From: a virus
Virus record (IMG/VR): IMGVR_UViG_3300021961_000040
Coordinates: 44,075 to 108,074 of that record
Strand: one strand, 5' to 3'
Length of the DNA: 64,000 bases
Made by a program: the position numbers and the translations under genes. Below, piece by piece: positions 46,868 through 57,102 of the stretch (the stretch's first letter is position 1; each line of letters opens with the position of its first letter). The notes under the pieces were generated by a model, which worked only from the letters and a program-made list of their open reading frames with translations, was not told where the DNA came from and did not search any database.

Positions 46868-48079
46868 TTGCATCCAAACATTCGTGAGCTGGTCACGCTT
46901 ATCACGTCCGACATTCGTTCCAACGCTGACAAAAAGGAGAAGTGGGCTGACTTCAAGTGTAACAACGTTGAAGAACTGACTCGCCTGCTCCAGCTTGAAG
47001 GTAAGGGGATGGATAATCCTGGTGCACTCATCGGAATTGACTTCGACGAAGATCGAAAGCTCATGTTGCTTAACTACACAGGTCAGGCACACAACTTCCT
47101 TCACGAGATTGAAGGCGGATGGACTCCCGTTCTGCGGCAGCTTCGTGGTTTGATTGTTGCTTATGATGGCGTGCCTCGAATGGTGTCTCGTGGTTTCGAG
47201 AAGTTCTTCAATTACAACGAGCTCCATGAGTGTTCTGTCGAAGGCTTGTCTGAAAAGTTTGGTGCTGATACAAAGTTTCTTGCACGTGAAAAGGCCGATG
47301 GCCATATGATTGAGTATTTTGTTCACAATGATGAACTCTGTGCTTCGACCCGTGGCAAGTTTGGCACTGCAAGCTCCGATCTTGCAACTGACATGTTCAA
47401 TCTTGAAACATTCAACATCGTTTCTGCTAATGTACCGAACGGCGTCATGTCTATCGTTGTCGAGCTTGTTCATCCTGACACTCGAGTCCATGTTGACTAC
47501 GATAGGTCTCATTTGTTCTTGCTCGCTATTTTTGATAAGGATGGTAATCGGTACAGCAATGAGATTCTTGAATCGCTTTGTGAGCAGCCGGAGTTTTTCT
47601 GCTTTACACCGCCTGCGGCGACAATGATGTCTCTCAACGACATGATTGCTGAAATCAACGATCGTAGTGTCGTTAACAACGAAGGTTGGGTCATGGACTT
47701 CGACGGATACCTTGTCAAGTTCAAGTACATCTCGTACATTGGTGAGATGGTCAAGTCCAAGCTTTCCTACAAATATATCATGAACTGCATGAAGAACGAT
47801 CGTCTCGATAAGATGCTCTTTACTCTGCCCGAAGAGATTCGTGAGGAAGCGTATCGAATGGTTGATGATGTTAAGGCAGCATCTGATCGTGCTATTCGGG
47901 CGGGTACTTATCAGCCACTATACGACTTGTTTAATCCAGACATGGAAGGTTCCAAGGGTTATTTTACTCAGGTTTGTCGGACCTATTGGCACGAGCACGT
48001 GATTCCGAACGGTCTGGATGAGGCTCGCCGAGCTGCGCAGGGTCGACTTCCGGCACTTCCATTTGCATTTGCTGGGTAA
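46868..48079 (+). CDS. RNA ligase, T4 Rnl1-like
   Basis: 403 residues from TTG 46868 (AAAGGAGG site). RQLRGLIVAYDG, SRGFEKFFNY, motif I EKADGHM with nucleotidyl Lys ~142, VELVHPDTRVHVDY, EGWVMDF and VKFKYISY match Rnl1-type ligases. It would repair cleaved tRNAs after host defence nucleases; the phage tRNA set fits. Confidence 0.9.
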   Translation: MHPNIRELVTLITSDIRSNADKKEKWADFKCNNVEELTRLLQLEGKGMDNPGALIGIDFDEDRKLMLLNYTGQAHNFLHEIEGGWTPVLRQLRGLIVAYDGVPRMVSRGFEKFFNYNELHECSVEGLSEKFGADTKFLAREKADGHMIEYFVHNDELCASTRGKFGTASSDLATDMFNLETFNIVSANVPNGVMSIVVELVHPDTRVHVDYDRSHLFLLAIFDKDGNRYSNEILESLCEQPEFFCFTPPAATMMSLNDMIAEINDRSVVNNEGWVMDFDGYLVKFKYISYIGEMVKSKLSYKYIMNCMKNDRLDKMLFTLPEEIREEAYRMVDDVKAASDRAIRAGTYQPLYDLFNPDMEGSKGYFTQVCRTYWHEHVIPNGLDEARRAAQGRLPALPFAFAG

Positions 48080-51300: not shown

Positions 51301-51322
51301 TTTTAAAATAAAAAGATTTTGA

Positions 51323-51351
51323 GTGTAAAAACACAAAATAGGTTATAAGAT
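51323..51351 (+). promoter_or_regulatory. phage promoter for Y-like RNAs and Ro60-like gene
   Basis: GTGTAA 51323-51328, 17 bases, TAAGAT 51346-51351; transcription would start near 51358, at the 5' end of the structured element. Confidence 0.85.
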
Positions 51352-51364
51352 ACAAAAGTAATCA

Positions 51365-51427
51365 AGGAAGCTAACAGCAATCTTTTACTTACCGCAATTC
51401 TACAAGTAAAATGCTTCCTGTCTTTTT
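51365..51427 (+). ncRNA. Y-RNA-like element A
   Basis: AGGAAGC (51365-51371) pairs with GCTTCCT (51413-51419). An 11-base one-sided loop TAACAGCAATC follows, then stem TTTTACTT/AAGTAAAA (51383-51390/51404-51411) and a 13-base loop. A T-rich tail follows the closing stem. End-to-end pairing plus oligo-U tail is the general Y RNA plan. Element C at 54282 has the same layout with compensatory changes. Confidence 0.6.
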
Positions 51428-51428
51428 A

Positions 51429-51520
51429 AGGGTAGTTACAGCAACATCCAATCAAATGGAGAGAATTGTCTAACAATTCGCACAGTTTGCAAGAGTTCTG
51501 ACAAACTTGCAACCTACCCT
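51429..51520 (+). ncRNA. Y-RNA-like or tRNA-like element B
   Basis: 7-bp closing stem AGGGTAG (51429-51435)/CTACCCT (51514-51520), then TTACAGCAA as in elements A and C. Three inner arms: TCCA/TGGA (51447/51457), GAATTG/CAATTC (51463/51474), TTGCAAG/CTTGCAA (51487/51506). This is a four-way cloverleaf without an anticodon or T-loop consensus. It ends 21 bases before the Ro60-like start. Confidence 0.6.
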
Positions 51521-51541
51521 GTTTATTTTATTGGAGATACG

Positions 51542-53005
51542 ATGTCGAACACATTTCTCAATTCTATGTCAAATAGTGCACAGACTGCAAACGGCGGGGC
51601 AACCAATACTTCTTCTTTGAATAACTGTGTTGATCTGTTCTTCCAGATTGGAAGTATGCGCAGCAATTCCGAAGAGGATATTCTTGTTGCCTGGACTAAG
51701 GCATTTCTAGAAAATCCTCAGACCGCGCTTAAGATCCTGTTTTGGGCCCGCGATGTCCGCCAAGGCGCCGGTGAACGACGAGTGTTTCGGACAATTCTGA
51801 CTCATTTGGCTGAGCGCAATCCTGAGTTGTTTTCGCAGCAACTCATTGCTCAGATTCCTGAGTTTGGGCGATGGGACGATTTGTTCGTGTTTTTTGGAAC
51901 CAAGCTCGAAGGGCGCGCGTCGAACGTTATTGAAAATGCGCTACAGCGTGGCGATGCGCTCTGCGCCAAGTGGATGCCTCGCGAGAAAGGATCAAAGTTA
52001 CACATCGCTCGAGCACTTCGACGCCACATGGGTATGACTCCGAGAGCTTATCGTAAGACGCTTTCTAACTTGACTGCTGTTGTCGAAACGCAGATGTGTA
52101 ATAGCGAGTGGTCTGACATCAACTACTCACATGTTCCTTCTCAAGCTATGCGTATCTACAAAAATGCTTTTCAGCGAAACGCACCCGAGACTTGGGCAGG
52201 ATATCTGTCGCAGATCGCCTCGGGAGAAGCAAAAGTAAATGCTGGTGCCATTCATCCGCACCAGATTCTGGGTCCTTATATTCGTTGTTCGAATAACAGT
52301 GTAGGATATGGATATGGATCGACGACTTACACGACCCATATTGAACCGGTTCCCCAGATTGTTGAAGAGCAGTGGAATGCATTGCCCGACTGGATGGATT
52401 CAAACAAGGGAGGCATCTTGCCTGTTGTTGACACTTCAGGGTCTATGATGGGGCTTCCCATTGAGGTGGCTGTTTCGCTTGGGATTTACATCGCCGAGCG
52501 CACTGTGGGTCCTTTCCAGAATTATTTTATCACCTTCTCTAATCAGCCAAAGATGCAGAAGATGAATGGAGAAACTCTTCATCAGAAGTTGACTTCTGTG
52601 TGCAGCGCCGAGTGGGGTATGTCTACAAACATTGAAGGCACTTTTGAGGCTATTCTGCATCACGCGACCACTAGCGGTGCTGCTAGCGAAGATATGCCTA
52701 AGACGATTCTTATCCTGTCGGACATGGAGTTTAATGCTGCAGCAAACATTAACGAGACTGCAATGCAGTCGATTCGTCGGCAGTACAACGAGGCCGGATT
52801 CGATCTGCCTAACATCGTTTTCTGGAACCTGAATGCTCGGCTGGGCAACGTTCCTGTGCGCTTCGACGAGCAGGGCACGGCTTTAGTTTCTGGATTCTCT
52901 CCGACTATCATGAAGTCAATTCTGAGTGCTGACAACTTTACCGCTGAAAGCATTATGCGTTTGACGATTGACTCTGAACGATACAATAACATCACTTTTG
53001 ACTAA
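51542..53005 (+). CDS. Ro60-like TROVE/DUF2828 plus vWA protein
   Basis: 487 residues. Residues ~30-250 are a helical-repeat module (ILFWARDVRQGAGERRVFR, LIAQIPEFGRWDDLF, AGAIHPHQILGPYI, compare IHPFHI in Ro60). Residues ~285-480 are a vWA domain with MIDAS DTSGSM (~296-301), ITFS and ILSDMEF. Ro60 and bacterial Rsr bind Y RNAs and misfolded RNAs and work with PNPase. Two Y-like RNAs lie in its leader and it sits in the tRNA cluster, supporting an RNA quality-control role. DUF2828 is the closest family name; RNA binding is inferred. Confidence 0.8.
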   Translation: MSNTFLNSMSNSAQTANGGATNTSSLNNCVDLFFQIGSMRSNSEEDILVAWTKAFLENPQTALKILFWARDVRQGAGERRVFRTILTHLAERNPELFSQQLIAQIPEFGRWDDLFVFFGTKLEGRASNVIENALQRGDALCAKWMPREKGSKLHIARALRRHMGMTPRAYRKTLSNLTAVVETQMCNSEWSDINYSHVPSQAMRIYKNAFQRNAPETWAGYLSQIASGEAKVNAGAIHPHQILGPYIRCSNNSVGYGYGSTTYTTHIEPVPQIVEEQWNALPDWMDSNKGGILPVVDTSGSMMGLPIEVAVSLGIYIAERTVGPFQNYFITFSNQPKMQKMNGETLHQKLTSVCSAEWGMSTNIEGTFEAILHHATTSGAASEDMPKTILILSDMEFNAAANINETAMQSIRRQYNEAGFDLPNIVFWNLNARLGNVPVRFDEQGTALVSGFSPTIMKSILSADNFTAESIMRLTIDSERYNNITFD

Positions 53006-53644: not shown

Positions 53645-53928
53645 GCCTCGATAGTTCAATGGATAGAACACCGGCCTTCAAATAGGAGCCTCATATCGGA
53701 AACGATATGTTGCATACACTCTCAAATTCGGGGAAGCCTTTAAAATGGTAATCCCGAGCCAAGCCCGAAAGGGAAGGTGTAGAGACTTGACGGGAGTGGC
53801 CTAAAAGAATCAATTGATTCTCATGGTTGAGAGAAAGTCCAGACCACAAACAACTTCGGTTGGCAGCGAAAGCTGTAGAGGGTACGCTAAGCCGTAGGTT
53901 CCAGGTTCGAGTCCTGGTCGAGGCGCCA
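53645..53928 (+). tRNA. tRNA-Arg(UCU) interrupted by a group I intron
   Basis: 5' exon 53645-53678 (acceptor GCCTCGA, D-arm, anticodon stem CCGGC, CTT); 3' exon 53887-53928 (CTAA, GCCG, T-arm CCAGGTTCGAGTCCTGG, TCGAGGC, G73, CCA). Joined loop CTTCTAA reads UCU. A second UCU tRNA at 54115 is uninterrupted. Confidence 0.9.
53679..53886 (+). mobile_element. group I intron (tRNA anticodon-loop type)
   Basis: 208 bases. The core resembles the IC3-like introns of Azoarcus tRNA-Ile and cyanobacterial tRNA-Leu: AATCCCGAGCCAAG, CCCGAAAGGGAAGGTGTAG, AGAGACTTGACGGGAG, AGAAAGTCCAGACCACAAAC. The 5' exon ends in U and the last intron base is G. No endonuclease ORF inside. Confidence 0.9.
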
Positions 53929-54281: not shown

Positions 54282-54350
54282 AGGATGCTAACAGCAAACT
54301 TTTACAAGATATTACCACGAAAATAACAATGTAAATGCATCCTGTTTTTT
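54282..54350 (+). ncRNA. Y-RNA-like element C
   Basis: AGGATGC (54282-54288)/GCATCCT (54337-54343), one-sided loop TAACAGCAAACT, stem TTTACA/TGTAAA (54301/54330), T-rich tail. Same plan and loop as element A, with A-T to T-A exchanges in the closing stem. Confidence 0.6.
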
Positions 54351-55028: not shown

Positions 55029-55107
55029 GGGGTGGTAGCTCAATTTGGTTAGAGCACCTGTCTCATAAACAGGCGGTTTGTGGGTTCAAGTCCCACCCAC
55101 CCTACCA
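55029..55107 (+). tRNA. tRNA with CAU anticodon, copy 2
   Basis: Identical over 79 bases to 54199-54277. Confidence 0.93.
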
Positions 55108-55113
55108 TTTCAA

Positions 55114-55217
55114 AATCCTGTTACTTGGGAAGGTTGCCGTTTAGGCTGTAAAACCGCGAGGAATCTATCCTTTTACCAGCAGGTGCCGCGTCGCACCGGT
55201 TAAAGTGTGCTACTTAT
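55114..55217 (+). other. structured region between tRNAs
   Basis: Nested hairpin GGTT-GCC-GTTTA-GGC-TGTA-AACC (55132-55155), CGCG/CGCG pairing, and GCAC...GTGC near 55193-55210. No tRNA fold is complete. May be a degenerate tRNA or another structured RNA. Confidence 0.35.
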
Positions 55218-55996: not shown

Positions 55997-56106
55997 TGAA
56001 GCGCGGCGAGAGCACGCAGGGTTCTACTGACAATATACGACCCGGTAAGGAATAAGAGTCTAAAAGGAATACTTACCAATTTGCAGGTGAAAATCCTGTC
56101 GCTTCA
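55997..56106 (+). ncRNA. class II tRNA-like RNA with 15-base anticodon loop
   Basis: 7-bp acceptor TGAAGCG/CGCTTCA (55997-56003/56100-56106), 2-base gap, D-stem GCG/CGC, 5-bp anticodon stem GGGTT/GACCC (56019/56039) with a 15-base loop, 6-bp variable stem GGTAAG/CTTACC (56044/56072), and 5-bp T-stem GCAGG/CCTGT with a 7-base loop TGAAAAT. Elbow bases (GG in D-loop, T-C in T-loop) and CCA are missing. Confidence 0.55.
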
Positions 56107-56492
56107 ATACAGGTGTGCAAAAATACTTTGGTACTACTATAAGCCGCGCAATGAGCGGACGTAGCGCATGGGACGCAGACTGATCCACTGCACTGTAAAA
56201 ACGGATTACCGCTGGCACACCGTTTAAAGTGTGCTCCTTATGCTCACCGCCAACATAGGGCCCGAGTAGGTACAGGGAACTGGCTTCAGCGCTAATGCTG
56301 ACTAAGATGCTCCAGTAACGGAAACAACGCTCACCCGTGAGCGGGTCATGCTAATGATGTTGGAAAATGTAGTACCAGAAGTGATGACAGGGTGGGCGTC
56401 CCGTCTGCGTCAGACTTGGTGTCGGAAGGTGAACGCCGCCTCTGACTTTAACTACAAACCCGCTAGCACACCGGTTAAAGTGTGCTACTTAT
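56107..56492 (+). other. about 390 bases of structured non-coding sequence
   Basis: No credible gene. Contains a 7-bp long-range stem GGTGTGC/GCACACC (56112/56215) enclosing CCGC-GCAATGA-GCGG and GCAG/CTGC hairpins, CAGC/GCTG, alternative hairpins CGCTCA/TGAGCG and ACCCG/CGGGT, GTCTG/CAGAC, and CTTTAAC/GTTAAAG competing with AGCACAC/GTGTGCT. Probably one or more structured RNAs. Confidence 0.4.
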
Positions 56493-56592: not shown

Positions 56593-57102
56593 ATGACTTA
56601 CGAATACAAGGTCTCTCACCGAGCCGATGGCTCGGTGGAGTTGGAGGAGTTCTTCAAGGAGGGTCTCCGTCACCGGGAGGGTGACCGACCGGCGTGGGTC
56701 CGTTACCGAGCCGATGGCTCGGTGGAGTTGGAGTCGTTCTGGAAGGAGGGTCAGCGTCACCGGGAGGGTGACCGACCGGCTGTGGTCCGTTACCGAGCCG
56801 ATGGCTCGGTGGAGTGGGAGGAGTTCTGGAAGGAGGGCCTCCTTCACCGGGAGGGTGACCTCCCGGCTGTGGTCCGGTATCGAGCCGATGGCACGGTGGC
56901 GTGGGAGTCGTTCTGGAAGGAGGGTCAGCTTCACCGGGAGGGTGACCGACCGGCTGTGGTCCGGTATCGAGCCGATGGCTCGGTGGAGCGGGAGCTGTTC
57001 TACAAGGAGAATCAGACGTACACTCCGAGCAAGGCAAAGCCTTACGAGGGCAAGACCGTGGAGATTGACGGCGTCAAGTACGTCTTGACGCCTGTGGATT
57101 GA
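56593..57102 (+). CDS. MORN-like repeat protein 1
   Basis: 169 residues: short MTYEYKVSH head, five ~29-residue repeats (core RADGSVE, F.KEG, HREGDRPA), C-terminal tail KTVEIDGVKYVLTPVD. Similar to MORN_2/YwqK-type repeats; ligand unknown. GC far above its neighbours. Paralogues at 59665 and 63760 share near-identical DNA. Confidence 0.75.
   Translation: MTYEYKVSHRADGSVELEEFFKEGLRHREGDRPAWVRYRADGSVELESFWKEGQRHREGDRPAVVRYRADGSVEWEEFWKEGLLHREGDLPAVVRYRADGTVAWESFWKEGQLHREGDRPAVVRYRADGSVERELFYKENQTYTPSKAKPYEGKTVEIDGVKYVLTPVD

Follow-up and report, generated by a model that had tools for sequence, protein, structure and literature searches.

Organization of the Ro-like locus

The window analysed here, a single strand of 64,000 nt, corresponds to positions 44,075-108,074 of the IMG/VR virus record IMGVR_UViG_3300021961_000040. 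On its plus strand, a promoter-like repeat is followed by two putative small RNA elements (A and B), a gene for a Ro-like protein and, 1.3 kb downstream of the gene and among tRNAs, a third element, C (Table 1). An earlier note on this DNA had proposed that a promoter drives two candidate Y RNAs in the leader of a Ro-like gene. The open reading frame (487 aa) was confirmed, and A and B indeed possess exact 7-bp closing stems, a common T(A/T)ACAGCAA and T-rich tails; C, which the note had named without a location, could be placed between a tRNA-Met and a tRNA-Leu.

Table 1. Features of the Ro-like locus (positions in the window)
Feature	Position	Strand	Description
Promoter-like repeat	51319..51351	+	TTGAGTGTAAA at 51319-51329, TATAAGAT at 51344-51351
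Element A	51365..51419	+	AGGAAGC-TAA-CAGCAA...GCTTCCT-G; stem AGGAAGC/GCUUCCU; motif UAACAGCAA at 51372-51380; inner helix UUUUACUU/AAGUAAAA; 3' flank GU
Element B	51429..51520	+	AGGGTAG-TTA-CAGCAA...CTACCCT-G; stem AGGGUAG/CUACCCU; motif UUACAGCAA at 51436-51444; three inner hairpins; 3' flank GU
Ro-like protein gene, 487 aa	51542..53005	+	helical N-terminal domain + vWA; DUF2828, DUF7788; phrog_850
Element C	54282..54343	+	AGGATGC-TAA-CAGCAA...GCATCCT-G; stem AGGAUGC/GCAUCCU; motif UAACAGCAA at 54289-54297; 3' flank GU; tRNA-Met/tRNA-Leu interval

The presumed promoter is real as a repeat: if up to one mismatch is allowed, 20 copies of TTGAGTGTAAA are present in the window, all on the plus strand, against an expectation of 2.1, and one of these copies precedes A. 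These promoter-like TTGAGTG(T/C)AAA sites, counted with at most one mismatch, are spread over the second half of the window at positions 38333-62955, and a repeat family of 50-67 nt stands 5' of tRNA and other RNA genes of the window. The tmRNA gene (369-801), the RNA ligase gene (46868-48079) and the tRNA cluster (13 tRNAs) that had been mentioned as the surroundings of the locus are all present.

Several other features of the window were recorded. The tmRNA gene scores 82.5 bits, and a weaker match to a permuted-tmRNA family overlaps it at 188-498. A group I intron (RF00028, 57 bits) splits the anticodon loop of a tRNA gene at 53645-53928, which was missed by ARAGORN. Untranslated-looking repeats (e.g. 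CACCGGTTAAAGTGTGCTACTTATTGGGGTG) at 55107-55217 and 56000-56492 precede two 99% identical copies of tRNA-Gln and are possibly further structured RNA, and a gene at 56593-57102 is built of 87-bp tandem repeats, corresponding to 29-aa repeats RYRADGSVE...HREGDRPA.

Elements A, B and C obey one strict rule: a 7-nt arm, 3 nt, CAGCAA, a variable middle, the complementary arm and a G. This rule is met at only three of the 53 CAGCAA sites in the window, namely those of A, B and C (0.075 expected, P ~7e-5); the short loop motif by itself occurs 3 times in the window against 1.4 expected, which is not significant. C is a 74% paralogue of A. Folding of B yields the closing stem and three hairpins, that is, the cloverleaf that had been read from its sequence (z of -4.35 and -3.52 against shuffles in two runs); A by itself has only modest stability (z roughly -1.7 to -1.8), and that of C is somewhat greater (z -2.3). 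The earlier note had proposed a covariance-model search as a check. A model built from 39 phage elements with the window left out (R1) matched only C (39.1 bits, E 6.6e-8) and A (28.5 bits, E 4.5e-5) in the whole 108-kb record. B gave no more than a weak partial match (E 0.07), probably owing to its long middle, and was kept in the set because it fits the strict rule and the neighbourhood. None of the three elements is matched by Rfam at its curated cut-offs.

The Ro-like protein

The 487-aa product carries the Pfam domains DUF2828 and DUF7788 and matches the PHROGs family phrog_850 ('RNA-binding protein') at 1e-145. The Pfam TROVE profile PF05731 does not match its sequence, nor did a sequence search of the PDB return any match. 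With 38 proteins from the window and viral contigs as input, AlphaFold2 produced a confident model (pLDDT 88.4, pTM 0.88), for which the best eight Foldseek matches in the PDB were all Ro60 (E 4.9e-7 to 9e-5, TM 0.45-0.60), Ro60-RNA complexes among them; no other match fell below 1e-3. Since the model is confident and its best eight matches are without exception Ro60, we assign the protein to the Ro60 fold, an assignment that is based on predicted structure instead of a sequence profile. The MIDAS metal site of the vWA domain (D297, S299, S301, T362, D394) is invariant in the 38 proteins. The protein had previously been described as a TROVE/DUF2828-vWA protein: DUF2828, vWA and the Ro60 fold stand, whereas the TROVE sequence profile is unmatched. 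A structure prediction outside TROVE, which would have counted against that description, was not obtained, the predicted fold being that of Ro60.

Members of the family are encoded in 682 phage records (phrog_850) and at 66 loci of bacterial genomes, four of which are confirmed by Pfam; some of the latter loci may be prophages. That the Ro-like protein binds Y RNA or misfolded RNA is an inference, for which there are no binding data.

A family of RNA elements with a fixed geometry

The closest relative of the window protein with elements at its locus (47% identity) has two copies directly 3' of the gene, and this is why the loci were tested systematically. The set of 280 loci comprised the window, loci retrieved for the similarity of their protein and those phage records that were examined. 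For each CAGCAA, a 7-mer ending at a set distance 5' of the motif was taken and a perfect partner was sought 18-110 nt downstream; the decoy offsets are a control that is independent of folding programmes. At an offset of 3 nt, 235 of the 1923 CAGCAA sites possess a perfect partner arm, and 225 of these arms are followed by G; decoy offsets of 6-30, in contrast, gave 7-27 partners each, followed by G in 2.7 (~3) cases on average. The DUF2828 loci of bacterial genomes alone yielded 39 at offset 3 versus 3-9 at other offsets. A wider count, in which CAGCAT, CCGCAA and longer elements were allowed while partner and G were required, identified 339 elements with 114 different stem 7-mers in 153 of the 280 loci. 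Owing to partial redundancy among the metagenome contigs, these counts do not represent independent events, and the 114 different arms are the better measure. The RNA family and its exact geometry are thus matters of observation, and homologous RNAs, whose absence beside related Ro-like genes would have refuted the original proposal, adjoin such genes in viral and bacterial loci alike.

When the strict rule is applied, about 127 of the 280 loci are without an element, among them those of most of the closest sequence relatives of the window protein (L005-L017); some contigs are truncated or may rely on variants of the motif. No credible element was found at the loci of phages Munch, DLP_6 and Lak-B2. 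The stable RNAs C and D of phage T4, checked as relatives, are without the module, and the partner RNAs in the phage records examined stay below the cut-off of every Rfam family. The 100% pairing seen in one alignment (A3) was dropped as evidence, its members having been picked for perfect stems. As to length, 184 of the 339 elements are shorter than 75 nt, nearly all of these without a tRNA. Elements of 150-240 nt with a large middle were encountered at L022 7443, L035 7793, L054 7560, L079 7799, L099 310 and L100 2350, and comparison of these with Rfam gave no convincing family.

All but three of the 339 elements (336) match the strand of the gene and most lie within 500 nt of it, 201 upstream, 133 downstream and 5 within the gene match. 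The location in the gene's own leader is therefore correct for A and B but incidental across loci, many elements, C among them, being downstream. Proximity and common strand could nevertheless indicate that the elements act in cis within the transcript of the gene, the binding of the Ro-like protein controlling its own translation or mRNA decay, the more so as the leader is taken up by A and B, with the end of B ~12 nt 5' of a GGAG ribosome site. We consider this unlikely: elements downstream of the gene would be at odds with it, as would the presence of several elements per locus, some of them kilobases off among tRNAs, like C or those of KVP40 (L100), which stand among tRNAs at 995-2562, 5 kb upstream of the gene. 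The closed end-to-end folds and conserved ends, moreover, suggest separate RNAs.

Co-occurrence of the RNA and the gene

The association also holds when the search starts from the RNA. Viral contigs were searched with one arm version of it (114 stretches). Within a first set of 80 loci, the gene is present in the examined stretch of 26, where each of the 27 elements shares its strand; of 45 additional records, taken whole, 17 encode it as well. Overall, the gene was detected in 43 of the 71 element-bearing contigs tested and in 3 of 50 control contigs selected for tRNAs (E<1e-100; p 2e-10). At E<1e-3, R1 matches exactly these three gene-bearing records among the 50 controls, with one marginal match at 0.007. 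In phages as in bacterial genomes, RNA and gene occur together well above chance expectation. A TROVE protein was sought in the element-bearing records without the gene and was found in none. One record of 249,606 bases (G011, locus L303) contains an element, with neither phrog_850 nor TROVE detected; this element may have another partner, or the record may be incomplete.

The control contigs bear on the question of whether the RNAs could be unrelated to the Ro-like protein and serve as tRNA or anticodon-nuclease decoys, or as processing punctuation of tRNA operons. Elements do sit in tRNA clusters and have T-rich tails, and YrlA has been proposed to act as a decoy (PMC7790460). However, their presence tracks the Ro-like gene and not the tRNAs, only the gene-bearing ones among the tRNA-selected controls being matched at E<1e-3, and a terminator has no need of a conserved CAGCAA spacing, which leaves both roles highly improbable in our view. 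It is also possible that motif and stem are used by a different RNA-binding protein, one that moves together with the cluster.

Permuted and interrupted tRNAs

A T-loop sequence is present in 65 of the 85 elements of 95-145 nt, and 38 elements parse as a permuted tRNA, with the T arm, the 3' acceptor strand, a short linker, the 5' acceptor strand and the D arm in this order. Such a domain is not detectable in A, B or C and is seen in these 38 parsed relatives; the cloverleaf did not emerge from a single RNA fold of one permuted element (L101). Among the viral contigs, permuted tRNA genes were noted at L139, L202, L227, L239, L258 and others, several of them (e.g. L227 and L239) encoding NCCA after the acceptor. 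NCCA is encoded at this place in 9 of the 38 parsed permuted tRNAs, and those that bear it are possibly processable tRNAs and not pure mimics.

Four tRNA genes of normal order were found in Citrobacter phage Ci1 (L098 9885-10122) and Synechococcus phage BUCT-ZZ01 (L108 9578-9824), just 3' of the Ro-like gene, their anticodon arm being split by a GNRA-capped CAGCAA/CTGCAA module. Removal of the insert gives, by eye, a canonical anticodon arm in both tRNA genes of BUCT-ZZ01. Joining across the module likewise restores a canonical anticodon arm in 15 of the 38 permuted tRNAs, compared with 6.3 (maximum 9) in swapped pairs. Together with the nine encoded NCCA ends, these interrupted genes would be in line with a module that acts as a splicing or excision element, the Ro-like protein and RNA ligase cutting and joining permuted or interrupted tRNA genes to give functional tRNAs. 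Perfect anticodon arms were not adopted as proof of splicing, since only 15 of 38 permuted tRNAs regain them. The other 23 do not, most have a capped acceptor loop of 2-7 nt, and the small elements that make up more than half of the family, nearly all devoid of a tRNA, would be left unexplained; furthermore, YrlA already has its tRNA parts in this permuted order and is a stable mimic of tRNA. Splicing is not excluded, and we judge it quite unlikely.

A possible role for the phage RNAs

We consider it likely that A, B and C act in trans as small RNAs to which the phage Ro60-like protein binds, in other words as its Y-RNA-like partners, their expression, binding and function being inferred. The constant terminal module, consisting of a 7-bp stem of drifting sequence, 5' NUW-CAGCAA, an A-rich 3' side and a G after the stem, would serve as the protein's handle, and the variable middle would be a swappable effector: a short loop in A and C, a cloverleaf in B, and a circularly permuted tRNA or a domain of 150-240 nt in their relatives. 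The middle would determine which molecules are recruited and which are kept away, in the manner of Y RNAs and Ro60, and the RNP may gate or guide a ring-shaped RNA chaperone during infection, alongside the phage RNA ligase. Its targets would probably be tRNA/tmRNA-like or damaged RNAs, because the window possesses a tmRNA, 13 tRNAs and an RNA ligase. Transcription, target and the gating or guiding itself are all inferred.

The 'RNA quality-control module' envisaged for this region is plausible and not shown. An RNA ligase lies two genes upstream in Salmonella phage Munch, with one small gene between, a tRNA-splicing ligase is found nearby in Listeria phage LMTA-57, and TROVE proteins have been noted with RNA repair genes in a survey of jumbo phages (PMC7824862). 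Ligase homologues were found in few of the loci, so that a fixed partnership with the ligase is unsupported.

Ro60 is a human lupus autoantigen, and here a virus carries a relative of it together with small hairpin RNAs. For a protein family annotated merely as 'RNA-binding' in hundreds of phages, this provides a likely RNA partner whose geometry of recognition is fixed and whose effector parts can be exchanged, so that the proposal is open to simple binding and sequencing experiments.

Comparison with known systems

The phage protein shares with Ro60 (PDB 1YVR, 1YVP, 2I91) the overall fold, a helical (HEAT-like) ring plus vWA with DxSxS (D297, S299, S301), T362 and D394. It differs from Ro60 in having 13-14% identity to it and DUF2828/DUF7788 in place of TROVE. 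The window protein belongs to the same family as phrog_850 and the mycobacteriophage 'Ro-like RNA binding protein', but that family is known by annotation only, and its partner RNAs are unannotated in the phage records examined.

Bacterial Y RNAs adjoin Ro60/Rsr genes and can mimic tRNA, and Chen is said to have reported Y RNAs in some phages in 2014. YrlA (RF02553), a partner of Ro60/Rsr, resembles the phage RNAs in that it adjoins a Ro60-fold gene, its ends close in a stem, and it has the permuted tRNA order, T arm - capped acceptor - D arm, of the parsed relatives of A-C. Its termini, on the other hand, read GgCgaAUGC / ACUuGucGcc in place of NUW-CAGCAA, and most phage elements are without a tRNA domain. 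With the Rfam YrlA model, the permuted relatives score 38-46 bits against a cut-off of 69, the match being for the most part confined to their tRNA-like portion; the element L239 aligns to it end to end, poorly so outside the tRNA-like domain. When the model was run on the window, A and B were unlisted up to E 10 and the only match spanned two ordinary tRNAs; the YrlA terminal consensus is absent from the phage elements. Judging from these alignments, the phage RNAs appear to have the architecture of YrlA with a different handle. The label 'Y RNA' consequently holds in the sense of 'works like', since the terminal module differs from that of YrlA, the YrlA model recognises none of the window elements and the protein is unmatched by the TROVE profile. 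If true, this would be a second way of tethering RNA to the Ro60 fold, distinct from that of YrlA.

A further and striking likeness concerns the Class I RNAs of dictyostelids (RF01414). These RNAs of ~60 nt have a terminal stem of drifting sequence, a motif beside its 5' arm, a variable A-rich middle and the ends AAG...CUGU; they are unreported outside dictyostelids (PMC7919456). Their known binder is the RRM protein Rnp1A; its binding and a DUSE promoter are eukaryotic features of the class. At E<=0.01, RF01414 has matches in 25 of the 50 records with the gene (best E 3.6e-6, top score 34.8 bits) and in 1 of 50 controls, where the sole match sits 262 nt downstream of a phrog_850 gene; it has no match on 14 control genomes. 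Its alignments to the small elements run from one end to the other, also in the case of A, whose 14.6 bits are not significant alone. In both groups, the terminal stem varies in sequence and its pairing is kept (114 phage stem sequences), and the 11-nt motif beside the 5' stem, with the consensus CUUACAGCAA, has its phage counterpart UNACAGCAA at the same place. The ends AAG...CUGU are exact in A and B, while C has UAG...CUGU. Unlike the phage RNAs, Class I RNAs have no known Ro-like partner, and B is longer. Homology is suggested by this likeness and not proved, since every phage element stays below the gathering score of 41.5 (best 34.8), and convergence on one binding geometry is possible instead.

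As the defining scores of both families are unreached, the phage RNAs are classed neither as YrlA nor as Class I RNA proper; their kind, Y-RNA-like partners of Ro60, is supported. The name DUF2828 occurs in plant papers, and eukaryotic members therefore exist. It is a tentative possibility, one for which we would not claim even chances, that the DUF2828-associated RNAs of phages and bacteria and the dictyostelid Class I RNAs form one family, the latter being Y-RNA-like partners of a DUF2828-type Ro60-fold protein of social amoebae. If so, this RNA family would be common to viruses, bacteria and eukaryotes. Class I RNAs have been reported only from social amoebae and have no settled function; for them, the likeness leads to a definite prediction, namely that a DUF2828 protein will be found on them.
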